Below are positions 16,766 to 36,014 of a stretch of DNA of 36,444 nt, in pieces. Numbering within the stretch: position 1 is the first letter of the stretch; the number at the start of each line of letters is the position of its first letter. A model generated the notes under the pieces. The model did not search any database and was not told the DNA's origin. It was given only the letters and a program-made list of their open reading frames with translations. The stretch comes from Deltaproteobacteria bacterium (GTDB taxonomy: Bacteria > Desulfobacterota > Desulfuromonadia > Geobacterales > Pseudopelobacteraceae), in contig JAFLLC010000135.1 in the NCBI GenBank assembly GCA_019162745.1, forward strand, positions 1-36,444, written 5' to 3'. A program made the position numbers and the translations under genes.

Positions 16766-17056
16766 CTTGCCACCTCCCGTCACCACGACCATGTTTTTAT
16801 CACAGGTGGAGGCGTCAGAAACAGAGTCATTCCGGGGGATGTATGCATTTCCTTATTTCTTACACATTTCCTGCACATTCGGCTGTTAGAAAGTACCCTC
16901 AGAATAATAAGCGAAGGGGGTGATACAACAGGGCAGGACCAAATCTACCGGGAAAGGAGGCAGCATCAGAGTACATGGAAGCGGAAACAGAAAATGTTCT
17001 ATTGAGTGGCGCGAACGGGTGTGTTCATGCGTCATAAAAAGAAAGGAGCGCGCAAA
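16766..17056. promoter_or_regulatory. Divergent intergenic region between baeS and the EF-hand gene
   Basis: No gene is seen. The only pattern is a set of related pyrimidine-rich words: CATTTCCT at 16846-16853 and again at 16865-16872, then CATTC at 16876-16880. These could be regulator half-sites for BaeR, but their spacing (19 and 11 bp) is not clearly regular. No convincing -35/-10 or -24/-12 promoter was found by eye. Confidence 0.3.
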
Positions 17057-17863
17057 ATGGTAAGTTCAATTGGGAGCAGTTCAGGTGGATTAAATGCAGC
17101 CGCACTGAAGAAGATGCAGGAAGAGATGTTTAAGGCGGTTGACAGCAACAGCGACAACAAGATCGATAAAGCGGAAATGAGTGCCTACCAGCAGACCCAA
17201 CAGGCGAACGGCGGGCAGGGTGGGCCAAGTGTTGACGACATTTTCAAGAATCTGGATGCTGATAACGACAGTGCTATCAGCAGGCTTGAATCAGATGCGG
17301 GGATTGCCAAACTCGCCCAGCAGATGCAGAGTCAAAAAAAGGAATCCGGCTCATCCACGGCCATGAAGGACAAGGTGTTCAGTAGCGCCGATCAGAACAG
17401 CGATGGCGCTATCAGTAAGGATGAGCTAACGACTTTGATGGGCAATTCCAATCAGAGCAGTGCCGATATCGCTGAAACATTCGATGCTCTGGATACGAAC
17501 CAGGATGGTTCCGTCAGCAAGAGTGAATCCGATGCTGCCGTTGACAAGGCCGGTCAACAGCGGAAGGCTCAGGGGCCTCCTCCACCCCCGCCGCCGTCTG
17601 ACAGCTCATCATCTGAGAGTACATCCAGTAGCACGGTTTTTGACGAACTGGATACGAATGAAGACGGGACTGTCAGTGCCAGTGAATTGTTAGCGGCGTT
17701 TACAAATGACGACAGCAGTTCTTCGTCAAGCACTTCTGCAGAGAGTTCAGCCGTCAAGCAACTTTTTGCTGCCGCTATAAAAAGTTATATGCAGGCAAGC
17801 ATGAACAGCTTTGCCCAGAATTCCACAGCGGCAACATTCTCATCTTCTGCCGTGTACGTGTAG
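17057..17863 (+). CDS. EF-hand calcium-binding protein with five loops
   Basis: The 268-residue product contains five 12-residue EF-hand loops: D29-E40, D67-E78, D112-E123, D146-E157 and D199-E210. The third, fourth and fifth fit DxNxDGxxSxxE closely. The second lacks the central glycine (DADNDSAISRLE), and the first has asparagine in that place. A proline run (seven Pro at 174-180) and serine-rich stretches at 182-192 and 220-231 act as linkers. The N-terminus (MVSSIGSSSGG) has no clear signal peptide or membrane anchor, so location is unknown. AAGGAG at 17043-17048 sets the start at 17057. It diverges from baeS, so it may belong to the same stress response. Ca2+ binding is a family-based prediction; the function is unknown. 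Confidence 0.82.
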   Translation: MVSSIGSSSGGLNAAALKKMQEEMFKAVDSNSDNKIDKAEMSAYQQTQQANGGQGGPSVDDIFKNLDADNDSAISRLESDAGIAKLAQQMQSQKKESGSSTAMKDKVFSSADQNSDGAISKDELTTLMGNSNQSSADIAETFDALDTNQDGSVSKSESDAAVDKAGQQRKAQGPPPPPPPSDSSSSESTSSSTVFDELDTNEDGTVSASELLAAFTNDDSSSSSSTSAESSAVKQLFAAAIKSYMQASMNSFAQNSTAATFSSSAVYV

Positions 17864-25331: not shown

Positions 25332-26759
25332 ATGATCATACACAAAAACGGCTGGGTTCATAATCTGCTCCTGTCGCTTTCCAGGCGGGCGGAGCAGTCT
25401 GAAAAAGACGGCCTCATGCTGGAGGATGCCCTGGGACATGCCTACGAAGGTTTAATTATTACCGATGCGAATGGCGTTATATTGAAGGTTAACGAGGCAT
25501 ACGCCCACTTTCTTGAAACAAAAATCAGTGATCTGGTCGGCAAGCAGGTTACCGACGTGATCGAGAATACCCGTATGCATCTGGTGGCTAAAAACGGTGT
25601 TGCCGAGATTGCGCAGTTGCAGAAGATCAAGGGGCATGAAATGATCTGCAGCCGCATTCCGATCATCGAAAACGGGAGCGTGGTTGCTGTCGTCGGCAAG
25701 GTCATGTTTCAAAACATTGAAGATCTCTTCTCGTTTACCGAAAACTTCAAGAAGCTTAAGACAGAGCTGGAGTTTTACAAAAGGGAACTCAGCAAACATC
25801 TGAGCGCCAAGTACTCATTCGACCATATCATAGGCATCAGCAAAGAGCTGGAGTGGGTCAAGGACCTCGGCCGGAGGGTGGCGATGAGCACCACTACCGT
25901 ACTGCTGAAGGGGGAGAGCGGCACCGGCAAGGAACTGTTTGCTCACGCCATACATAACGCCAGTCCACGGGCATTCGGCCCGTTTATAAAGGTCAATTGC
26001 GCCGCCATTCCGGAAACGCTCTTCGAGTCCGAGCTGTTCGGTTACCGGGAAGGTGCTTTTACCGGGGCGCAGAAAAAGGGGAAAAAGGGGAAGTTTGCCC
26101 TGGCAGATAAGGGGACGATCTTTCTGGATGAGATCAGTGAACTGCCGCTGACGATGCAGGTGAAGCTGCTGCGGGTACTCCAGGAAAAGGAGATTGAGCC
26201 GGTCGGTGCAGAGGCTTCCGAGGCGGTGGATGTACGGATAATTGCCGCTTCAAACCGTGATCTGGAAACGCTGGTCAAGGGCGGCCTGTTCCGCCATGAT
26301 CTGTATTATCGCCTCAATGTGGTCATGCTGGAGATCCCGCCACTTCGGAGCCGCCGTGATGATGTCCCGCTGCTGATCCAGTTTCACCTCCGCCAACTGG
26401 AGAAGGAGACCGGTATTCCGGTGGAAGGGGTCGAGCCTGATGTTGCCGAGATCCTCAAGCAGTATGACTGGCCGGGCAATGTAAGGGAACTGCGTAATGT
26501 TCTCGAACAGGCGCTTTACGTAAAAGTCGGCACCACAATTACGCGTAATGATATCCCGGGGGCTCTTGTCAAAGGGGTCGGTGCTTCGTCATCGCCGGAA
26601 ACCTGTCGCAGCCTGAAGTTTATTACCCGGCTGGCCGAAGAGGAGGCTATCCGGACAGCCATCCGCGAGGAGAAGGGGAACAAACAGGCGGTTGCCGCCC
26701 GGCTCGGGATAAGCAAGTCATCGCTTTATGCCAAAGTTTGCCAGTTTGACATCGGGTAG
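25332..26759 (+). CDS. PAS-domain sigma-54-dependent transcriptional activator
   Basis: This enhancer-binding protein of 475 residues opens promoters with sigma-54 RNA polymerase. An N-terminal PAS domain covers about residues 30-130 ([20 protein letters not shown]), then a coiled segment at about 138-158. The AAA+ domain has Walker A GESGTGKE at 194-201, the sigma-54-contact loop GAFTGA at 241-246 and Walker B FLDE at 264-267. A Fis-type helix-turn-helix lies at 445-470 ([20 protein letters not shown]). There is no receiver domain, so it probably senses a ligand or redox cue directly. GGAG at 25322-25325 supports the ATG at 25332. It lies immediately upstream of three dyad sites and a sigma-54 promoter, so the downstream operon is its likely target. 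Confidence 0.92.
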
Positions 26760-26788
26760 TAATTGCAGTAAGGAATTACAATCATCAA

Positions 26789-26812
26789 CTAATTCCAAAA
26801 TATCGGAATTAG
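26789..26812 (+). promoter_or_regulatory. Candidate activator site 1 (perfect inverted repeat)
   Basis: CTAATTCC (26789-26796), 8-nt spacer, GGAATTAG (26805-26812): both 8-nt arms match exactly. The centre is at 26800.5, about 276 bp before the predicted transcription start. It begins 30 nt after the stop codon of the activator gene. Confidence 0.65.
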
Positions 26813-26828
26813 CTCCAAAATATTGGAA
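26813..26828 (+). promoter_or_regulatory. Candidate activator site 2
   Basis: CTCCAAAATATTGGAA differs from the core of site 1 (TTCCAAAATATCGGAA) at two bases and is centred at 26820.5, exactly 20 bp, about two helical turns, from it. Side-by-side sites on one DNA face suit cooperative binding. Confidence 0.62.
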
Positions 26829-26929
26829 CCTTCCGGTGCTGGTAAATAATATGCTTTAGAAACGGTATCTTGAATAACCATCCCCCATGTAAAACCGCAC
26901 AAGTAAATCTCCTGTTCTCTGCCAGTTTG

Positions 26930-26944
26930 TCCAATTTTCTGGAA
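26930..26944 (+). promoter_or_regulatory. Candidate activator site 3
   Basis: TCCAATTTTCTGGAA keeps the TCC-N8-GGAA layout of sites 1 and 2, with a different spacer. The centre is 116 bp from site 2 (about 11 turns) and about 115 bp upstream of the -24 element. Confidence 0.45.
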
Positions 26945-27050
26945 TATCGGCGCTCTCCTGTTTGATTGGTTACACTGTTTTGTCATTACGGTAATAAAAA
27001 AAGCTTATATTGCAGTATGTTATATATTATTGCTGAAGCGCTGTGGCGTA

Positions 27051-27066
27051 TGGCATGGCACTTGCT
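27051..27066 (+). promoter_or_regulatory. Sigma-54 promoter of the usp-liv-sco-thl-bdh operon
   Basis: TGGCATG-GCAC-TTGCT matches TGGCACG-N4-TTGCW with one mismatch and exact GG-N10-GC spacing (GG 27052-27053, GC 27064-27065). Transcription would start near 27077, 26 nt before the usp ATG. This is the best -24/-12 match I found in the window. Confidence 0.82.
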
Positions 27067-27102
27067 TTATTTTTGTATAAATCTGTTTTATTTGGAGCCG
27101 TC

Positions 27103-27897
27103 ATGAGTATCAAAGATATTCTCCTGCATCTGGACGATTCTCCCGCCTGTGAACGAAGGATTGATGTTGCCTTGACTCTGGCGCAGACACATGGCGCGCG
27201 GGTAACGGGACTCTCAATCGTGACCTACGAATATTATCAGCCGCACTATCAACATACTGAAGAAAAAATAGCGGCTGTCTGCGCGCTGCTGGGAGTGAAA
27301 GCAGAGGCTGCCGGCATCGAGGTGGTATGTCGCAGTATCGAATCAAGCGTGGTAGGTGTGGGGGCGCGCGAACTGCTGATCCGCGCGTCGCACTGCAGTG
27401 ATCTGATTGTCGTCGGCCAGGAATCACGCCGGACAACTCGCGCTTCATCTTTAGTAGAGCCACTTGTGACAGGTGGAGGGCGACCGGTGCTTGTTGTACC
27501 TGCAGCAGGCGCTTTTTCCACCGTCGGCTCGCGCGTTCTGGTGGCCTGGAAGAACGGCCGGGAGGCGGCCCGTGCGCTGCATGATGCGATGCCGATCCTG
27601 CAGCAGGCAGAACAGGTGACGTTGCTGGCGATCGCTTCCGGGGAAGAGTCTAGTCAGTACAGCTGGGAGGGGATACAGGAGCATCTTCAGCGTCATGGCA
27701 TCGTGGCCCGGTCTGAAATTCAGCCTGTTACCTCGGCTTCCCTGGCGGACAGCCTGCTGAACCAATCCTGTGAAGGTGGTTACGATCTGCTGGTGATGGG
27801 CGCCTATTACCAGGGACCCCGCGGCGGATCACATTTTGGCAAGGTAGCAGGCCAGATTCTTCGGGAGATGACTATCCCGGTTTTAATGTCCCATTAG
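27103..27897 (+). CDS. Tandem universal stress protein (UspA family)
   Basis: This is a cytoplasmic protein with two Usp folds in 264 residues. The first starts at MSIKDILLHLDDSPACERRI, the second near GSRVLVAWKNGREAARALHD at about 145. The C-terminus carries YDLLVMGAYYQGPRGGSHFG, close to the nucleotide-binding GxxG-9-G(S/T) motif of ATP-binding Usps. The start at 27103 is required because upstream in-frame codons overlap the sigma-54 promoter; GGAG at 27094-27097 supports it. As first gene of the operon it may help cells cope with the switch to, or stress from, the imported acid. This role is inference. Confidence 0.85.
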   Translation: MSIKDILLHLDDSPACERRIDVALTLAQTHGARVTGLSIVTYEYYQPHYQHTEEKIAAVCALLGVKAEAAGIEVVCRSIESSVVGVGARELLIRASHCSDLIVVGQESRRTTRASSLVEPLVTGGGRPVLVVPAAGAFSTVGSRVLVAWKNGREAARALHDAMPILQQAEQVTLLAIASGEESSQYSWEGIQEHLQRHGIVARSEIQPVTSASLADSLLNQSCEGGYDLLVMGAYYQGPRGGSHFGKVAGQILREMTIPVLMSH

Positions 27898-27937
27898 TGC
27901 AAAAGAATAGGTGTTACAAGAACCAGGAGCGAAGCAG

Positions 27938-28690
27938 ATGACGGATCATATTCTCGAAACAAAAAATCTGTCCAAGGAATTCAAAGGGTTCACAGCTGTT
28001 TCTGCCGTTAACCTGCAGATTCAGCGTGGCCATATACACGCTCTGATCGGACCGAACGGCGCCGGTAAGACCACCGTTTTCAATCTCCTCACTAAATTCC
28101 TCATACCGACCGCCGGCAGTATCCATTTCAACGGTACTGACATCACGAGTGAAAAATCGGCCGATATTGCCATGCGCGGAATTGTCCGTTCTTTCCAGAT
28201 ATCGGCGGTCTTCCCGAATCTGACCCCTTTGGAGAATGTGCGGCTGGCGCTGCAGCGCAAGCTCGGTATTTCCTATCATTTCTGGAAATCGGACTCCATT
28301 CTTAACCAGTTGGATGAGCGGGCGATGGAACTGCTGGATGCGGTAGGTCTGGCTGAATTCGCCGGAGAGGTCACCGCTGAGTTGGCGTACGGGCGGAAAC
28401 GGGCTCTGGAGATTGCCACAACGCTGGCGCTTGATCCTGAGTTGATGCTGCTGGATGAACCGACCCAGGGGATGGGGGTCGAAGATGTGGATAAAATAAC
28501 CGCGCTGGTGAAGAAGGTTTCCGCTAACCGCACCATCTTGATGGTTGAGCACAATCTTAAGGTTGTGGCAACGCTGGCAGACAGGATAACTGTCCTCCAG
28601 CGGGGGGCGATACTCGCTGAAGGGGCATACGCGGAAGTGTCTCAAGATCCGCAGGTTTTGGAAGCGTATATGGGGAGTGCTCATGAGTGA
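27938..28690 (+). CDS. livG: Branched-chain-type ABC transporter ATP-binding protein LivG
   Basis: This is one of two ATPases of a HAAT-type (hydrophobic amino acid/amide) importer. The 250-residue product has Walker A GPNGAGKTT, a Q-loop in RSFQISAVFPNLT, the LivG-type signature LAYGRKRALEIATTLALDP, and Walker B LMLLDEPTQGMGVED. AGGAG at 27925-27929 supports the ATG at 27938; a GTG farther up is less likely. It lies 40 nt after usp and overlaps livF by 8 nt. HAAT importers also carry amides, organic acids and aromatic acids, so amino acid import is not certain here. Confidence 0.9.
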   Translation: MTDHILETKNLSKEFKGFTAVSAVNLQIQRGHIHALIGPNGAGKTTVFNLLTKFLIPTAGSIHFNGTDITSEKSADIAMRGIVRSFQISAVFPNLTPLENVRLALQRKLGISYHFWKSDSILNQLDERAMELLDAVGLAEFAGEVTAELAYGRKRALEIATTLALDPELMLLDEPTQGMGVEDVDKITALVKKVSANRTILMVEHNLKVVATLADRITVLQRGAILAEGAYAEVSQDPQVLEAYMGSAHE

Positions 28691-29399
28691 ATCTGAACAC
28701 AAAGAGATGCTGCGGATAACTGATCTGCACGCTTTTTATGGTGAATCCCACATCCTCCACGGCATCGATCTGACCGTCGGAGAGGGAGAAGTCGTCACGC
28801 TTCTGGGGCGAAACGGTGCCGGGCGAACCACGATTCTCAAGTCGATCATCGGGCTGGTCGGGCGGCGGAGCGGTTCTATCACAATCAACGGCGTTGAAAC
28901 CGTCACGATGCCGACTCACAAGATCGCCCACCTCGGTATCGGATACTGTCCTGAAGAACGCGGAATCTTTTCCAGCCTGAATGTTGAAGAAAATCTGCTG
29001 TTGCCGCCGGTTGTAAAAGAGGGAGGCATGTCACTCCCGGAAATTTACGCGATGTTCCCCAATCTGCTGGAGAGGCGGAGCAGTATGGGAACCAGGCTTT
29101 CGGGCGGAGAACAGCAGATGCTGGCAATGGCGAGGATTCTGCGCACCGGGGCGAAACTCCTGCTGCTGGATGAAATTACCGAAGGACTGGCGCCGGTAAT
29201 AGTTCAGACCCTGGGACGGCTCATCGGCCAGTTGAAGGAAAAAGGCTTCACTATCATTCTGGTGGAGCAGAATTTCCATTTTGCCGCTGACCTGGCTGAC
29301 CGCCATTATGTGATTGATCACGGCGTTATAGCAGAGATGATAACCAGGGACGAACTTGGCTCCAGCAGGGAGAAACTTAACCGATACCTGGGCGTCTGA
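28683..29399 (+). CDS. livF: Branched-chain-type ABC transporter ATP-binding protein LivF
   Basis: This is the second ATPase of the importer, with 238 residues. The Walker A reads GRNGAGRTT: arginine stands where the nucleotide-binding lysine is expected. The codon at that point is CGA, so a single sequencing error to lysine (AAA or AAG) is unlikely. The signature LSGGEQQMLAMARIL and Walker B LLLLDEITEGLAP are otherwise normal. GGGGAG at 28672-28677 precedes the ATG at 28683. The gene overlaps livG by 8 nt. I believe some LivF homologues carry the same change, so it may be a subfamily trait in which one ATP site is weakened. Confidence 0.9.
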   Translation: MSESEHKEMLRITDLHAFYGESHILHGIDLTVGEGEVVTLLGRNGAGRTTILKSIIGLVGRRSGSITINGVETVTMPTHKIAHLGIGYCPEERGIFSSLNVEENLLLPPVVKEGGMSLPEIYAMFPNLLERRSSMGTRLSGGEQQMLAMARILRTGAKLLLLDEITEGLAPVIVQTLGRLIGQLKEKGFTIILVEQNFHFAADLADRHYVIDHGVIAEMITRDELGSSREKLNRYLGV

Positions 29400-29429
29400 T
29401 CAGGTATACAAACTGAAAGGGGAATCTGT

Positions 29430-30653
29430 ATGAAAAATCTGTTTTCAAACGTAGCAATGACAGTCGCCGTATTGGCAATGACAAGTGGAATGGCTGGCGC
29501 GGCAAGCAAAGGGGTTTCAGACGGCGTAGTCAAAATCGGGGTGCTGACCGACATGTCCGGTGTCTACTCAACCCTCGGGGGAAAAGGGACTCAGGTCGGC
29601 GTAGAAATGGCGGTCAAGGACTTTGGCGGCAAGGTACTCGGCAAGCCGATTCAGGTTATTGGCGCCGACCATCAGAACAAGGCCGATATCGCCTCTGCCA
29701 AGGCCCGTGAATGGATTGATAATGAAAAAGTGGACATGATTACCGGCCTGCTGAATTCAGGCTGCGCCCTGGCGGTGCAGAAACTTGCGGGAGACAAGAA
29801 AAGGATCACGATGAACACCGGCGCGGGCAGCACTGATCTTACCAATAAAGCCTGCACTCCGTACAGTATCCACTACGTGTATGACACCTACGCAACCGGC
29901 AAGGTAACGGCCCAGGCTATTGTTCCAACCGGGGGCAAAAGCTGGTTCTTTATCACCGCCGATTATGCCTTTGGTCATTCTCTGGAGCAGAACACGACGA
30001 ACTTTGTGAAAAAAATGGGCGGCAAAGTGCTCGGCTCGGTGCGTCACCCTCTTTCTACCTCTGATTTTTCATCGTACCTGCTCCAGGCCCAGTCATCAGG
30101 GGCCCAGATCATCGGTCTGGCTAATGCCGGCGGCGATACAATCAATGCGATAAAGCAGGCGCGGGAGTTCGGCATCGACAAGAAGGGGCAGAAACTGGTC
30201 GGCCTGCTGGTATTCGATACCGACATAAAGAGCCTCGGTTTGAACGTTGCACAGGGAATGCAGTTCACTTCCGGCTTTTACTGGGATCGGGATAATGCCA
30301 CCCGCGCTTTTGCCAAGCGTTACTACGCCATCCACAAGGCGATGCCGACAATGGACCAGGCCGGAGCATATTCCGCCACGATGAACTACCTGAAGGCGAT
30401 CAAGGCTGCCGGTACCGATGATTCGGATGCGGTCATGGCAAAACTGAAATCCATGGATATCTCCGATTTCTTCGCTGTCCACGGCAAGATAAGGGCTGAC
30501 GGGCGGATGGTGCATGATATGTATCTGATGGAAGTGAAGAAACCTTCCGAGTCCAAGGGGGAATGGGATCTTCTCAAGATTGTAAAAACCGTTCCTGCCG
30601 CTGAGGCCTTTATGCCTCTCTCCGAGAGCACCTGTCCATTGGTTAAAAAGTAA
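29430..30653 (+). CDS. livK: ABC transporter periplasmic substrate-binding protein (LivK type)
   Basis: This soluble receptor of the importer is exported by a Sec signal peptide with likely cleavage after AGA near residue 25. The mature part begins with SDGVVKIGVLTDMSGVYSTL, the start of the Peripla_BP_6 (Leu/Ile/Val-binding) fold. The 407-residue length is on the long side of normal. Later segments (ITADYAFGHSLEQNTTNFVK) follow the fold and the C-terminus is hydrophilic. AAAGGGGA precedes the ATG. The binding pocket cannot be read by eye, so the ligand is inferred only from the catabolic genes downstream. Confidence 0.9.
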   Translation: MKNLFSNVAMTVAVLAMTSGMAGAASKGVSDGVVKIGVLTDMSGVYSTLGGKGTQVGVEMAVKDFGGKVLGKPIQVIGADHQNKADIASAKAREWIDNEKVDMITGLLNSGCALAVQKLAGDKKRITMNTGAGSTDLTNKACTPYSIHYVYDTYATGKVTAQAIVPTGGKSWFFITADYAFGHSLEQNTTNFVKKMGGKVLGSVRHPLSTSDFSSYLLQAQSSGAQIIGLANAGGDTINAIKQAREFGIDKKGQKLVGLLVFDTDIKSLGLNVAQGMQFTSGFYWDRDNATRAFAKRYYAIHKAMPTMDQAGAYSATMNYLKAIKAAGTDDSDAVMAKLKSMDISDFFAVHGKIRADGRMVHDMYLMEVKKPSESKGEWDLLKIVKTVPAAEAFMPLSESTCPLVKK

Positions 30654-30657
30654 GTCG

Positions 30658-30742
30658 AAATCCCCCCTAGCCCCCCTTTCGTAAAGGGGGGAATTTTAAG
30701 GCCTCCCCCTTTATGAAAGGGGGATTGAGGGGGATTTTTTTT
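30658..30742 (+). repeat. Two-hairpin C/G-rich palindromic repeat between livK and livH
   Basis: The outer arms AAATCCCCC (30658-30666) and GGGGGATTT (30729-30737) are complementary. Inside lie two hairpins: CCCCCCTTT/AAAGGGGGG (30671-30679 with 30683-30691, 3-nt loop) and CCCCCTTT/AAAGGGGG (30705-30712 with 30716-30723, 3-nt loop). Eight T residues follow the outer arm (30735-30742). The form resembles dispersed intergenic palindromes common in Geobacter-type genomes. In the mRNA it could act as a partial terminator or protect the livK 3' end. Confidence 0.85.
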
Positions 30743-30797
30743 GAATGTGAAAAGATGGCATTATTGAAGAGCAGATTTCATCACGAGGGAGCTGGTC

Positions 30798-31703
30798 ATG
30801 GATATATCCTTTCAGATGGTCATGTCGCAGGTTATGCTGGGCCTCAACAACGGTGTGTTTTACGCCATTCTGAGCCTCGGTCTGGCGGTTATTTTCGGCC
30901 TCCTGAACATTGTCAACTTTGCCCATGGCGCACTCTACATGCTGGGCGCGTATGTGGCGCTGCTCGGCTTTACCTCGCTGGGGCCGCTGCTCGGGATGCC
31001 GGACTTCCATCTCAATTACTGGGCGGCGCTGATCGTCTCTCCACTTGTGGTAGGTGCGTTCGGGATCGTGGTTGAACGGACCATGCTGCGCAGACTGTAC
31101 AAGTTTGACCACCTTTACGGCCTGCTGCTGACTTTCGGCCTGGCCCTCATTATCCAGGGGGTCTTTACCAATTTCTTTAATGTATCCGGTGACCCGTATG
31201 AAGCGAAACCGGAGATTCTGAACGGGGTGGTTAATCTCGGCTTTATGATGTTTCCGAAATACCGCCTCTGGGTAATTGTCGTCTCGCTGCTGGTCTGTTT
31301 CGGCACCTGGTATGTTATCGAGCGGACCAAGCTCGGCTCCTATCTTCGCGCCGGCACTGAAAATCCGGAACTGGTGAAGGCCTTCGGCGTCAACGTGCCG
31401 CTTATGATCACGCTGACATACGGTTATGGCGTGGCTCTGGCCGCCTTTGCCGGAGTGCTTGCCGCACCGATCTATTCAGTCAGTCCGGTTATGGGCTCGG
31501 AGATGATTATCACCGTGTTTGCCGTGGTCGTCATCGGCGGGATGGGTTCTATTATGGGTTCTATCGTTACCGGCCTGTTGCTCGGCATGGTGGAGGGTTT
31601 CACCAAAGTTGTGTATGCCCCTGCCTCCAGTACCGTTATCTTCCTGATCATGGTAATCGTTCTGCTGGTCAAGCCCGCCGGCCTGTTCGGGAAGGAGTCG
31701 TAA
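30798..31703 (+). CDS. livH: Branched-chain-type ABC transporter permease LivH
   Basis: This inner-membrane permease of the HAAT importer has 301 residues and about eight hydrophobic segments. Family motifs are GLNNGVFYAILSLGLAVIFG and NIVNFAHGALYMLGAYV near the N-terminus. AVVVIGGMGSIMGSIVTGLL near the C-terminus is the cytoplasmic coupling region. GAGGGAG lies upstream of the ATG. It is separated from livK by 144 nt holding the two-hairpin repeat, and livM begins directly after its stop. Confidence 0.92.
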   Translation: MDISFQMVMSQVMLGLNNGVFYAILSLGLAVIFGLLNIVNFAHGALYMLGAYVALLGFTSLGPLLGMPDFHLNYWAALIVSPLVVGAFGIVVERTMLRRLYKFDHLYGLLLTFGLALIIQGVFTNFFNVSGDPYEAKPEILNGVVNLGFMMFPKYRLWVIVVSLLVCFGTWYVIERTKLGSYLRAGTENPELVKAFGVNVPLMITLTYGYGVALAAFAGVLAAPIYSVSPVMGSEMIITVFAVVVIGGMGSIMGSIVTGLLLGMVEGFTKVVYAPASSTVIFLIMVIVLLVKPAGLFGKES

Positions 31704-32645
31704 ATGAACAAGTATGTCTGGTGCGCCCTTATACTCCTTGGTCTGCTGGCGCCGTTTGTTGTGTATCCGATATTCATGATGAAGCTGCTCTGCTTTGCGC
31801 TGTTTGCCTCCGCGTTCAACCTGCTGCTTGGCTACACCGGGCTTCTTTCCTTCGGACATGCCGCATTTTTCGGGGGGGCGTCTTATGTCACCGGCTATCT
31901 GGTTAAAAACAGCGGCCTGACTCCTGAATTAGGGGTTCTGGGCGGTACGCTCTTCGCCGCGCTGCTGGGGTACATCGTCGGCAGCCTCGCGATCCGGCGG
32001 CAGGGGATCTATTTTGCCATGGTGACTCTGGCCCTGGCACAAATTGTCTATTTTGTCGCACTCAAGGCCCCCTTTACCGGCGGTGAAGATGGCCTGCAAG
32101 GCATTCCCCGTGGCGATCTCTTCGGCCTGATCAACCTGGGACATGTGTACCATGTCGGTGGCAGCCCGCTCGGGCTCAACCTTTATTACTTCGTCTTCGT
32201 CATGTTCTGCCTTGGTTTCTGGGTCATTCACCGGACGATTCATTCACCCTTCGGCCAGGTGCTGAAGGCGATCCGTGAGAATGAACCGCGCGCGGTTTCA
32301 CTCGGGTACAAGGTGGATAGATTCAAGCTGATCGCTTTTGTCATCTCTGCGTCCCTGGCCGGAATGGCCGGTTCGCTCAAATCCCTGGTGTTCCAGCTCG
32401 CTTCACTGACCGATGTCAGCTGGCATACGTCCGGAGAAGTGGTCCTTATGACGCTTCTTGGCGGGGTCGGTACGGTGCTTGGGCCGCTGGCCGGCGCATT
32501 TACCGTGGTGACTCTCCAGTCAGAGCTGAGTTCGGTTGGCTCCTGGATAACTGTCATCATCGGCAGTATCTTTGTGATCTGCGTGCTGCTTTTCCGCCGC
32601 GGGTTTATCGGAGAACTGGGGCGCCTGTTGAAGCGGTCACTGTAA
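31704..32645 (+). CDS. livM: Branched-chain-type ABC transporter permease LivM
   Basis: This is the second permease of the importer, 313 residues with about nine hydrophobic segments. Family motifs include [20 protein letters not shown], the coupling segment [20 protein letters not shown], and [19 protein letters not shown]. The ATG follows the livH stop without a gap, with AAGGAG inside the end of livH. It completes a five-part importer with livG, livF, livK and livH. Confidence 0.92.
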
Positions 32646-32670
32646 ACATATTCGCTCAAGGAGGCAGCTG

Positions 32671-33369
32671 ATGGAGTGCAAAACAATACACGATGCGCTG
32701 GCATGGATTCCGGATGGTGCGACCCTGATGGTCGGCGGTTTCGGTCTGGTGGGGATACCGGAAAACCTGATCATCGGCTTACGGGATCTGGGAACCAGGG
32801 ATCTGACCGTGATTTCCAATAATTGCGGGGTTGATGACTGGGGGCTGGGGTTGCTGCTGCAGAACCGCCAGATAAAAAAGATGGTATCCTCATATGTTGG
32901 CGAGAACAAGGAGTTTGAGCGCCAGTACCTCTCGGGTGAGCTGGAGGTTGAGCTGGTGCCGCAGGGGACGCTGGCTGAGCGGTGCAGAGCCGGCGGAGCC
33001 GGCATTCCGGCCTTCTACACTCCGGCCGGTGTCGGCACCCCGATTGCCGAAGGGCGGGAAACCCGTTTTTTTAATGGCCGGGAATACCTGCTGGAAACCG
33101 CCCTGAGCGCTGACTTCTCACTGGTCAAGGGGTGGCGCAGCGACCTGATGGGGAACCTGCAGTATCGCAAAACCGCCCAAAACTTCAATCCGATGATGGC
33201 TGCCGCCGGACGGATAACCATCGCCGAGGTGGAAGAGGTGGTGGAGGTCGGCGCCATGGACCCCCATCATGTGCATACCCCCAGTATCTATGTCCAGCGC
33301 TTTATTTGCTGCAGTCACCAGGAGAGGCGGGTTGAACGCCGCACCGTGCGGAAAGGAGAGGGAGCATGA
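32671..33369 (+). CDS. 3-oxoacid CoA-transferase subunit A
   Basis: This is the alpha subunit of a two-subunit CoA-transferase (ScoA/AtoD type) that moves CoA to acetoacetate from succinyl-CoA or acetyl-CoA. The 232-residue length is typical. Family marks are [37 protein letters not shown] and [20 protein letters not shown]. The last two resemble the succinyl-CoA:3-ketoacid type more than E. coli AtoD, but the CoA donor cannot be fixed from sequence. AAGGAGG precedes the ATG. The stop overlaps the subunit B start as ATGA, as expected for a heteromeric pair. Confidence 0.9.
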
Positions 33370-34007
33370 GTTGGACACGCGAGCAGATAGCACAGCGGGC
33401 GGCCCAGGAGATTGAGGATGGCTTTTACGTCAATCTCGGGATCGGCATGCCGACTCTGGTGGCCAATTACATCCCGGAGGGCAAACGGGTAGTCTTTCAG
33501 TCGGAAAACGGGTTGCTCGGAATCGGCCCCTACCCTACCGAAGAAGAACTTGACCCTGACCTGATCAATGCCGGTAAGGAGACGGTCACCATGATACCGG
33601 GGGCGGCCCTGTTCAGCAGCGCCGAATCTTTCGCCATGATCCGGGGCGGCCATATTAATCTGGCCATTCTGGGTGGAATGGAGGTCTCGGCCGGAGGTGA
33701 TCTTGCCAACTGGGTCATTCCCGGCAAGATGGTCAAAGGAATGGGGGGGGCCATGGACCTGGTAAACGGCGCCCGCCGGATCGTGGTGATCATGGATCAT
33801 GTCAACAAAGAGGGCGAACCAAAGATTCTGAACAGCTGCAGCCTGCCGTTGACCGGCCGTGGGGTGGTCAACCGGATCATCACCGACCGGGCCGTGCTGG
33901 ATGTCACACCGGACGGACTGCGTCTGGTTGAGGTTGCGCCGGGGTATACCCCGGCTGAAATCCAGGCCTGCACAGAGCCGACCTTGATTATACCGCAGAC
34001 TCTCTGA
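33366..34007 (+). CDS. 3-oxoacid CoA-transferase subunit B
   Basis: This is the beta subunit of the CoA-transferase, carrying the catalytic glutamate E47 in the motif [10 protein letters not shown], which forms the glutamyl-CoA intermediate in this family. The 213-residue length is normal. [20 protein letters not shown] and [20 protein letters not shown] are conserved in ScoB/AtoA proteins. It is translationally coupled to subunit A by a 4-nt overlap and followed after 20 nt by the thiolase, which would cleave the acetoacetyl-CoA it makes. Confidence 0.92.
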
Positions 34008-34027
34008 GCTAAAGGAGTTCTACTATT

Positions 34028-35212
34028 ATGCGCACTGTTATCATAGCATCTGCCGCCCGGACCCCGATCGGATCGTTCGGAGGGTCACTCTCCTCACTCT
34101 CCGCTGTCCAACTGGGCCAGCTTGTCATCAGTGAAGTTATCAAGCGGACGGGTCTCAAGCCTGAACAGGTCGAAGAGGTCATCATGGGGCAGATTCTTCA
34201 GGCCGGCTGCGGGCAGAATACGGCGCGCCAGGCAGCTGTTGGCGCCGGTATCCCGGACCATGTCCCCTCCTACACGGTCAACAAGCTCTGCGGCTCCGGC
34301 CTGAAGAGTGTGGCACTGGGCGCTCTGGCTATTGCCGCCGGGGAAGCGGATGTGATTATTGCCGGCGGTATGGAGAGCATGAGCCGGGCGCCCTATCTGC
34401 TTGACAAGGCACGCTCCGGTTACCGTATGGGTAACGGCGTCCTGGAGGATACCATTCTTAAGGACGCGCTGACGGATGCTTTCCACAATATCCATATGGG
34501 CATTACGGCCGAGAATATTGCCGATCAGTATCATATCTCGCGAGAAGAGGCGGATGCCTTTGCCCTGCAGTCGCAGCAAAAGGCTGCCAAGGCGGTTCAG
34601 GAAGGGCACTTCAAGCGTGAGATCGTCCCGGTCGCAATTCCCGGTCGGCAAGGCCAGGAAGTTATCGTGATGGAGGATGAATATCCGCGCCGCGACACTA
34701 CCATGGAAAGTCTGGCAAAGCTCCGACCGGCCTTCAGGGAGGTCGGTGTGGTCACGGCCGGAAATTCTTCAGGCATCAACGATGCCGCAGCAGCGGTTCT
34801 GCTGATGGAGCTGGGGGCGGCCGGCCGGGCCGGTATTCGTCCGCTGGCCCGCATAGTGGGGTGGGGATCGGTCGGGGTTGATCCAAAAATTATGGGGATG
34901 GGACCGGTTGGGGCGATCCGCAAGGCGCTGGAGAAAGCCGGTCTGAGGCTGGATGATATCGATCTGGTGGAGCTGAACGAAGCCTTTGCGACCCAGTCCC
35001 TGGCGGTGATTCGCGAATTGCGCCTGGACAGCCGCAAGGTCAATGTCAATGGCGGCGCCATTGCGCTGGGTCACCCGGTGGGGGCCAGCGGCGCACGCGT
35101 GCTGGTAACGCTGCTGCATGAGATGGAACGGCAGGGTCTGCGGCGGGGACTTGCCTCGCTCTGTATCGGTGGCGGGCAGGGGATTGCGATGATAGTCGAG
35201 CGTGATATTTAG
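34028..35212 (+). CDS. Acetyl-CoA acetyltransferase (thiolase)
   Basis: This biosynthetic-type thiolase in the degradative direction splits acetoacetyl-CoA with CoA into two acetyl-CoA. The 394-residue length is standard. Catalytic residues are visible: nucleophile C88 in [12 protein letters not shown]349 in [14 protein letters not shown], and C379 in [19 protein letters not shown] at 34011-34017 serves the ATG. Its place between the CoA-transferase and hydroxybutyrate dehydrogenase genes supports a ketone-body degradation role; reversal toward polyhydroxybutyrate synthesis is possible, but no phaB or phaC is nearby. Confidence 0.94.
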
Positions 35213-35231
35213 TAAGAAGGGAGGGGGGGGT

Positions 35232-36014
35232 ATGCTCAAGGGTAAAAGTGCACTTATAACCGGTTCGACCAGCGGCATCGGGCTCGGCATCGCCCGTGCT
35301 CTGGCAGGGCAGGGATGTAATATCATGTTGAATGGCCTGGGGGACGCGGGAAAGATTGAAACGACCCGAAGAGGGCTGGAAACCGGGTTCGGGGTTACCG
35401 CTCGATTTCACGGCGCCGATATGACCAGGCCGGAGGAGATCGCGGCATTGGTGGAGAGCACGGCAGCCGGCTTCGGCGGCGTTGACATTCTGGTCAATTG
35501 TGCCGGTATCCAGCATACCGCACCGGTAGAGGAGTTTTCACCCGAACGGTGGGACGCCATTATCGCAGTTAACCTCACCTCCGGTTTTCATACGATCCAC
35601 CATGCACTCCCGTATATGCGGCGCGGTTGCTGGGGGCGGATCATCAATATTGCCTCGGTGCACGGCCTGGTGGCATCGGCCAACAAAGCGGCCTACGTCA
35701 CCGCCAAACATGGCCTGGTGGGCCTAACCAAGGTCGTGGCGCTGGAAACGGCCGGTTCCGGCATTACCAGCAACGCCATCTGCCCCGGCTGGACGAGAAC
35801 CGAGCTGATCGAACCGCAGATCGCCGCCCGCGCCAACACTCTCGGGGTAGATCTCGAAGCGGGAGGGCGCAGTATGCTGGCGGAGAAACAGCCGTCACAG
35901 CAGTTTGTAACGATTGAGCAGCTCGGGCAGCTGGCGCTCTTTCTCTGCTCATCCGGTGCAGATCAGATTACCGGTACGGCGGTTCCTGTTGATGGCGGCT
36001 GGACGGCGCAATGA
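35232..36014 (+). CDS. D-3-hydroxybutyrate dehydrogenase
   Basis: This NAD-dependent short-chain dehydrogenase oxidises D-3-hydroxybutyrate to acetoacetate. With the start at 35232 (GGAGG-rich site just upstream) it has 260 residues. The cofactor motif is TGSTSGIG at 10-17, and the catalytic set is N114, S142, Y155 and K159. The positions known from the Pseudomonas fragi enzyme structure to contact substrate are all present with matching numbers: Q94, H144, K152, W187, Q196 and W257. This makes the call much firmer than for a generic SDR. It ends the operon, and the next gene is convergent 30 nt away. Confidence 0.93.
   Translation: MLKGKSALITGSTSGIGLGIARALAGQGCNIMLNGLGDAGKIETTRRGLETGFGVTARFHGADMTRPEEIAALVESTAAGFGGVDILVNCAGIQHTAPVEEFSPERWDAIIAVNLTSGFHTIHHALPYMRRGCWGRIINIASVHGLVASANKAAYVTAKHGLVGLTKVVALETAGSGITSNAICPGWTRTELIEPQIAARANTLGVDLEAGGRSMLAEKQPSQQFVTIEQLGQLALFLCSSGADQITGTAVPVDGGWTAQ

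Follow-up and report, generated by a model that had tools for sequence, protein, structure and literature searches.

In Pseudomonas aeruginosa the activator HbcR (PA2005) governs (R)-3-hydroxybutyrate metabolism together with RpoN, and in P. fluorescens HbcR responds to (R)-3-hydroxybutyrate, as cited in two reports (PMC10482368, PMC8694187), one of which places the PAS domain of HbcR at 17-123 (PMC8694187). P. putida has a LysR-regulated operon, PP_2047-2051, through which (R)-3-hydroxybutyrate is turned into acetoacetate and acetyl-CoA (PMC13390443). Here we analyse a locus on a 36,444-nucleotide stretch of DNA (the window; contig JAFLLC010000135.1) from a bacterium of the Geobacterales, in which the gene for a PAS-containing sigma-54 activator is followed by genes for a Liv-type (HAAT) ATP-binding cassette (ABC) importer, a 3-oxoacid CoA-transferase, a thiolase and a D-3-hydroxybutyrate dehydrogenase (BDH). 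Judging by its sequence, the locus is likely to be an inducible operon that scavenges (R)-3-hydroxybutyrate from outside the cell.

The activator resembles HbcR in that it combines PAS, AAA+ and Fis-HTH domains, lacks a receiver and is linked to BDH and to a -24/-12 promoter, and by these domains and this linkage it appears to be HbcR-type. A first, sequence-only reading of the window knew of no described case in which a PAS-only activator serves this route; such a case does exist, as HbcR (PA2005) with RpoN acts in this way in Pseudomonas (cited in PMC10482368 and PMC8694187). The same reading knew of no HAAT importer serving the route, and our search of the open-access literature turned up none that had been linked to 3-hydroxybutyrate. 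Thus the regulation is of a known type, and it is the transporter assignment that looks new. The regulator of the P. putida operon is of the LysR type whereas the window has a sigma-54 activator, with the same pathway end products.

The E. coli AtoSC-atoDAEB system also joins CoA-transferase AB and thiolase under sigma-54 activation. In contrast to the window, it uses the two-component AtoSC pair and the AtoE permease, while here the activator is PAS-only, a BDH gene is present and no member of the AtoE family was found in the genome.

Genes and sites of the locus

Positions 25332-36014 hold an activator gene, a 343-bp intergenic gap and then a run of ten genes ending at 36014, all on the + strand. 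The genes, their coordinates and their arrangement in one run, as given in the sequence-only reading, were borne out, with open frames at the places named and matches to the expected Pfam and NCBIfam families. The features of the locus are as follows.

25332-26759, + strand: PAS/AAA+/Fis-HTH sigma-54 activator, apparently HbcR-type, without receiver (Pfam PF00989, PF00158, PF25601, PF02954)
26793-26808, unstranded: dyad 1, TTCCA-N6-CGGAA, putative activator site (motif search and conservation)
26813-26828, unstranded: dyad 2, CTCCA-N6-TGGAA, putative activator site (starts 20 bp past the start of dyad 1)
26929-26944, unstranded: dyad 3, GTCCA-N6-TGGAA, putative activator site (starts 116 bp past the start of dyad 2)
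27051-27066, + strand: sigma-54 -24/-12 promoter, TGGCATGGCACTTGCT (starts 122 bp past the start of dyad 3)
27103-27897, + strand: universal stress protein (Usp), accessory (PF00582; no match in 5 of 19 relatives)
27938-28690, + strand: LivG-type ATPase of the ABC importer (PF00005, PF12399)
28677-29399, + strand: LivF-type ATPase (PF00005)
29430-30653, + strand: periplasmic binding protein (Peripla_BP_6), proposed to bind 3-hydroxybutyrate or acetoacetate (PF13458)
30657-30738, + strand: strong hairpin and T run with a palindromic CCCCCTTT/AAAGGGGG repeat (folding; the repeat recurs in the genome)
30798-31703, + strand: LivH-type permease (PF02653)
31704-32645, + strand: LivM-type permease (PF02653)
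32671-33369, + strand: 3-oxoacid CoA-transferase subunit A, CtfA (TIGR02429, 265.8 bits, cutoff 128.5)
33366-34007, + strand: 3-oxoacid CoA-transferase subunit B, CtfB (TIGR02428, 331.1 bits, cutoff 243.55)
34028-35212, + strand: acetyl-CoA acetyltransferase, thiolase (TIGR01930, 508.6 bits, cutoff 240.55)
35229-36014, + strand: D-3-hydroxybutyrate dehydrogenase, BDH (TIGR01963, 332.2 bits, cutoff 307.05)

In a Pfam scan the activator matched no receiver-domain model. The four catabolic gene products passed the cutoffs of TIGR01963, TIGR02429, TIGR02428 and TIGR01930, in agreement with the earlier proposal of a complete set of enzymes from D-3-hydroxybutyrate to two acetyl-CoA. BDH also scored above the cutoff of NF009093 (332.1 bits, cutoff 258) and below that of NF009931 (280.4 vs 340 bits), and the alpha subunit of the CoA-transferase fell below the AtoDA acetate CoA-transferase model NF007394 (223.8 vs 315 bits). 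The alignment of BDH to the solved D-3-hydroxybutyrate dehydrogenase 1wmb spans its entire length (E 1.4e-98), and the substrate and catalytic residues of 1wmb, Gln94, Ser142, His144, Lys152, Tyr155 and Gln196, are all identical in that alignment by eye.

These assignments suggest how the operon could work. The PAS activator would sense 3-hydroxybutyrate or a close metabolite, bind the three TTCCA-N6-TGGAA-like sites, two of them 20 bp apart and the third about 115 bp further on, and drive RpoN polymerase at the 27051 promoter. Import of 3-hydroxybutyrate, and possibly of acetoacetate, would then fall to the binding protein, the two Liv-type permeases and the two ATPases. Judging by their families, BDH would convert 3-hydroxybutyrate to acetoacetate, CoA-transferase AB would make acetoacetyl-CoA from acetoacetate and a CoA donor, and thiolase would split acetoacetyl-CoA into two acetyl-CoA.

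Conservation of the operon and its control region

A search for conserved neighbourhoods, proposed in the sequence-only reading, was run in 141 genomes of the order. The activator (threshold E 1e-120) was found in 22 of the 141, the window's own genome included, and the binding protein likewise in 22, with both present in 21 (Fisher p 9e-23 for co-occurrence, kinship ignored); one genome has the activator without the binding protein (G083, 78% complete) and one the binding protein without the activator (G074). Regions around the activator gene were retrieved for 20 of these 22 genomes; the own genome and G120 were not included. The importer lies 3' of the activator in 19 of these 20 relatives, the exception (L110) being a 7.4-kb contig, and CtfA, CtfB and BDH are present in all 16 regions that extend far enough. 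L122, which ends before BDH, has CtfAB and thiolase, and L112 and L115 end earlier. Of the 17 fetched relatives that extend to the place of thiolase, 10 have it, and Usp was matched in 14 of 19. The fixed core is therefore the activator, dyads, promoter, importer, CoA-transferase and BDH, with Usp and thiolase as variable members. With the importer, dyads and promoter recurring in 19 of 20 relatives, comparison between genomes supports the operon as a conserved regulated unit that is predicted to take up and break down D-3-hydroxybutyrate. Genome G121 carries a related operon.

Some relatives (L006, L007, L009, L109, L111, L113, L116 and L117) carry an extra short-chain dehydrogenase between the activator and the dyads, which in L007 is of the PRK07576 type. 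About 3.5 kb lie between the short-chain dehydrogenase and the dyads in L113 (L113:3510-7011), where the dyads and promoter are still intact.

We also asked how far the control region differs from chance. Allowing at most one mismatch to TTCCA-N6-TGGAA, the three dyads are the only matches in the whole 36.4-kb window; allowing two, there are 19, which is chance level (shuffle mean 16.7; 37 of 100 shuffles reach 19). The promoter TGGCATGGCACTTGCT is an exact fit to TGGCAYRN4TTGCW, and at up to one mismatch this consensus has one match in the window, within chance (mean 1.62). Because the dyads and promoter are conserved across relatives they nonetheless stand above chance, and it is solely this conservation that rules out a chance origin. 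At least two dyads (up to two mismatches) followed by a -24/-12-like site, scored permissively at 10/12 or more, were found in 19 of the 20 fetched relatives, and 17 have at least three dyads, so that the three dyad sites and near-consensus promoter of the sequence-only reading are confirmed as sequence features. The geometry is also kept. In all 18 rows with a close pair, the window included, the starts of the first two dyads are separated by 20 or 21 bp, and the distance from the start of the last dyad to the -24 box is 122-127 bp in 16 of 20 rows (window included), 134-135 bp in two and 103-104 bp in two. The 20-bp spacing would put dyads 1 and 2 on the same face of the helix.

When the 141 genomes were searched for a dyad pair at 20-bp spacing (up to two mismatches), 17 matched: 15 of the 22 that carry the activator and 2 of the 119 that lack it. 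Each matched genome has the pair at a single place, and a reversed-pattern control matched 1 of 141. Since the pair is largely restricted to activator genomes and occurs once in each, the array is real and, at that stringency, appears to serve a single operon.

A second recurring feature, which the sequence-only reading had not mentioned, lies between two of the importer genes. The 144-nt gap between the genes for the binding protein and LivH folds with a minimum free energy of -63.8 kcal/mol (z -4.9), and a T run stands behind the hairpin. The own genome contains 14 forward and 13 reverse matches, some overlapping, to the CCCCCTTT-N4-AAAGGGGG-like repeat at up to two mismatches. The same gap folds at -24 kcal/mol or lower in 15 of 18 rows (the window and 17 relatives), mostly with differing sequences and with a shuffle control for the window only; L109, L111 and L116 are the rows without such a fold. 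The hairpin probably serves to hold the level of the binding protein above that of the importer's membrane parts.

The sequence-only reading had called the locus self-contained. This overstates the case: RpoN is encoded elsewhere, the CoA donor is external, thiolase is absent from the cluster in 7 of the 17 relatives that extend that far, and the hairpin may split expression. The two sigma-54 DNA-binding-domain genes of the own genome, C46:15081 and C89:10067, are both outside the operon, and the donor for the CoA-transferase is supplied by central metabolism.

The gene content of the genome bears on the direction of the pathway. Neither the AtoE-type short-chain fatty acid carrier (PF02667) nor a polyhydroxybutyrate (PHB) synthase of the PhaC_N kind was found in the own genome, which is 99.49% complete, and we rejected on these grounds an AtoE carrier as the uptake route and an intracellular PHB cycle. 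With both missing, the operon is more likely to scavenge external substrate than to turn over a store made by the cell itself. BDH is reversible, and BDH and thiolase do occur in PHB metabolism, which raises the alternative that BDH runs in reverse here, in an operon for PHB turnover or for excretion of 3-hydroxybutyrate as an electron sink. We regard this as highly improbable: PhaC_N is missing not just from the own genome but from 18 of the 22 activator genomes (three, G082, G096 and G102, have weak partial matches and one, G120, has full ones), and ABC systems that use a periplasmic binding protein transport inward.

The importer and its substrate

The importer is a full HAAT set by Pfam and shares with the Liv importers the two ATPases, two BPD_transp_2 permeases and Peripla_BP_6 binding protein; by eye, the N-terminus of the binding protein resembles a signal peptide. 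It differs in the binding protein, which is 19% identical to E. coli LivJ and LivK and has no acid at the position of LivJ Glu226. We aligned 12 members of the family, the window's included, chosen from 83 relatives. In all 12, in an alignment at this 19% identity, Glu226 of LivJ is replaced by Leu or Met (Leu in the window), Tyr202 by Ala and Thr102 by Gly or Ala, while the Ser79 position is Ser in 11. Glu226, Thr102 and Tyr202 are ligand contacts of LivJ, with Glu226 holding the amino group. The acidic residue that a LivJ/LivK-type protein would require at the Glu226 position is thus missing from all 12 aligned members, and its loss fits a ligand without an amino group.

The nearest solved structures of the binding protein are 3i09 (E 1e-141) and 3n0w (E 7e-107); 3i09 reportedly has acetoacetate modelled in its pocket, a lead that was given no weight. 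These solved relatives are named after branched-chain amino acids and leucine breakdown ends in acetoacetate, so that the HAAT domains could simply mark an ordinary branched-chain amino acid importer, with leucine-derived acetoacetate feeding the CoA-transferase and thiolase. This would be very surprising, however, given the Leu or Met at the Glu226 position and the low identity to LivJ and LivK. Moreover, no leucine-pathway gene is among the families assigned in the run, and a leucine route has no need of BDH.

We next turn to the importer's relatives, for which the best 80 of at least 589 related coding stretches were examined. A tree was built from 83 binding-protein relatives together with LivJ and LivK of E. 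coli; in it, the 13 rows that have this type of operon cluster together (support 100/99). Four of the 13 (L008, L010, L011 and L012) come from metagenome-assembled genomes (MAGs) labelled Holophagaceae and have another gene make-up. L008 and L012 have a fused CoA-transferase directly before LivG and BDH behind LivM, and L010 and L011 are cut. By profile hidden Markov model (HMM), the CoA-transferase of L008 is FadX-like and its BDH is above the TIGR01963 cutoff; the fused CoA-transferase of L012 was assigned by clustering. In these Holophagaceae-labelled MAGs (L008:6665-8329, L012:6621-8291) the fused CoA-transferase replaces CtfAB and the binding protein is 86-89% identical. The position of such binding proteins inside a Geobacterales group could be due to horizontal transfer or to a wrong MAG label.

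Outside this group, the Myxococcales locus L043 has an activator at 64%, the importer and, behind LivM, a BDH above the TIGR01963 cutoff. A CoA-transferase lies directly before LivG in L052 (CoA-transferase AB) and in L055 (fused, by HMM). In eight loci of the Duganella group, the product of the gene directly behind LivM belongs to a single protein cluster (c20), and the three members scanned are all, by HMM, 3-hydroxybutyrate (3HB)-oligomer hydrolases (PF10605; E 1e-267 in L074, E <1e-268 in L067 and L070), which a genome search places consistently. This enzyme releases 3-hydroxybutyrate from oligomers, and its link to the importer is a line of evidence on the substrate that does not depend on the window's own enzymes. 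A hydrolase beside the importer was rejected as a general rule: it is encoded in 9 of 16 genomes tested and was seen adjacent to the importer only in Duganella-group loci.

Activator relatives with other carriers

We also searched the order to which Marinobacter pelagius (G149) belongs: 145 genomes were covered, and 16 of them have a match to the activator at E 1e-80, each a single one. By raw count, a BDH-like gene lies less than 4 kb from the activator homologue in 12 of these 16 loci, and in 10 it is on the activator's strand; L148, L153, L156 and L160 have no BDH-like gene within that distance. All 12 genes are above the NF009093 cutoff (258 bits) and 10 are above the TIGR01963 cutoff. In 10 of the 16 loci a -24/-12-like site follows the activator at no more than 250 bp, where the background rate of the loci predicts 0.28. 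The five activator homologues that were aligned are 37-44% identical to the window's activator, and the dyad is not common to both. Overall, the 16 loci contain 22 dyad matches at up to one mismatch, compared with 6.4 expected from mononucleotide shuffles, which ignore codon bias.

The carriers scanned in six of these loci are all of a different kind from that in the window. Three loci (L145, L149 and L154) have the DctP and DctM components of a tripartite ATP-independent periplasmic (TRAP) transporter. L149 and L154 resemble the window in having a homologous activator, and their BDH is above both the NF009093 and NF009931 cutoffs; they differ from it in the TRAP components and a 3HB-oligomer hydrolase, with no ABC importer. 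This hydrolase lies directly before the activator in 4 of the 16 loci (L149, L154, L155 and L157). In M. pelagius (G149) it is spread over two separate frames (L154:7170-7979) and may be broken or misassembled.

In the other three loci a polytopic permease of some 463 aa separates the activator from BDH (L151:6112-7503, L152:5663-7054, L147:7317-8744). At E 0.01 neither Pfam nor NCBIfam offers a model that fits this protein, which is likely a 3-hydroxybutyrate permease. Where L151 and L152, presumed to be Pseudomonas-like, have this permease, the window carries an ABC importer of the HAAT family and a CoA-transferase. L151 additionally has an OprD porin between activator and BDH and an AMP-binding/ACAS_N ligase behind them. 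A core of regulator and BDH that is shared while the transporters are exchanged argues strongly for a transporter whose cargo is the substrate of BDH.

In L153 (L153:7484-14033), an activator homologue of 38% has beside it a more distant set of Liv genes (29-42%) and a gene resembling that of CoA-transferase B (30%); this may be an importer for another acid with similar control. Elsewhere in the window, positions 17006-17863 encode a predicted 285-aa protein with several EF-hand-like repeats by eye.

Discussion

The assignment of 3-hydroxybutyrate as the substrate is supported by independent lines of comparison, namely the relatives of the importer, the relatives of the activator and the binding pocket. 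Several observations weigh against reading the locus as one operon for 3-hydroxybutyrate. The hairpin could terminate much of the transcript or separate two transcription units. The search with PhaC_N misses some PHB synthase classes. Two of the comparisons above carry limits of their own, the low identity behind the pocket alignment and the missing control for the BDH count. The control site is also not shared widely: L043 has just one weak dyad, and in the 16 loci around M. pelagius TTCCA-N6-TGGAA was found behind the activator homologue in none (within 400 bp), which led us to reject the idea that activators of this kind generally have the dyad as their motif. In M. pelagius itself the activator homologue goes with a TRAP carrier and is on a different contig from the Liv genes.

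Finally, many importer relatives, in Marinobacter, Zoogloea, Pandoraea and others, have no BDH or CoA-transferase alongside. The neighbours scanned there include GMC, aldehyde, acyl-CoA and zinc alcohol dehydrogenases, an AMP-ligase, IlvD and ornithine cyclodeaminase, and the importer family may take several small acids. The main substrate in the window could then be another short acid, such as acetoacetate, butyrate, 3-hydroxyvalerate or a branched hydroxy or keto acid, with enzymes serving a broader range. The acyl-CoA ligase and the acyl-CoA, alcohol and aldehyde dehydrogenases beside the importer's relatives would agree with this, as would the extra short-chain dehydrogenase (PRK07576 type in L007) in some relatives of the operon. 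We think this unlikely, though less so than the leucine and reverse-BDH alternatives. All 16 relatives that extend far enough retain BDH, and the hydrolase of the Duganella group indicates 3HB itself. For butyrate in particular, an acyl-CoA dehydrogenase and an enoyl-CoA hydratase would be required, but all ten genes of the run are assigned to other families.

With 3-hydroxybutyrate as the preferred substrate, we lean somewhat towards a wider hypothesis, in which the 3i09/3n0w group of "branched-chain amino acid" importers would be carriers of 3-hydroxybutyrate and its kin, the HbcR-BDH core would swap between permease, TRAP and ABC carriers, and the Geobacterales core would have gained its own three-dyad site controlling a single operon. 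This would give a testable substrate to a large group of ABC importers that are annotated as amino acid carriers, two solved structures among them. The findings also predict a sigma-54 regulon of one operon with a defined DNA site, and they suggest that some relatives of iron-reducing bacteria may live on 3-hydroxybutyrate released by other microbes.

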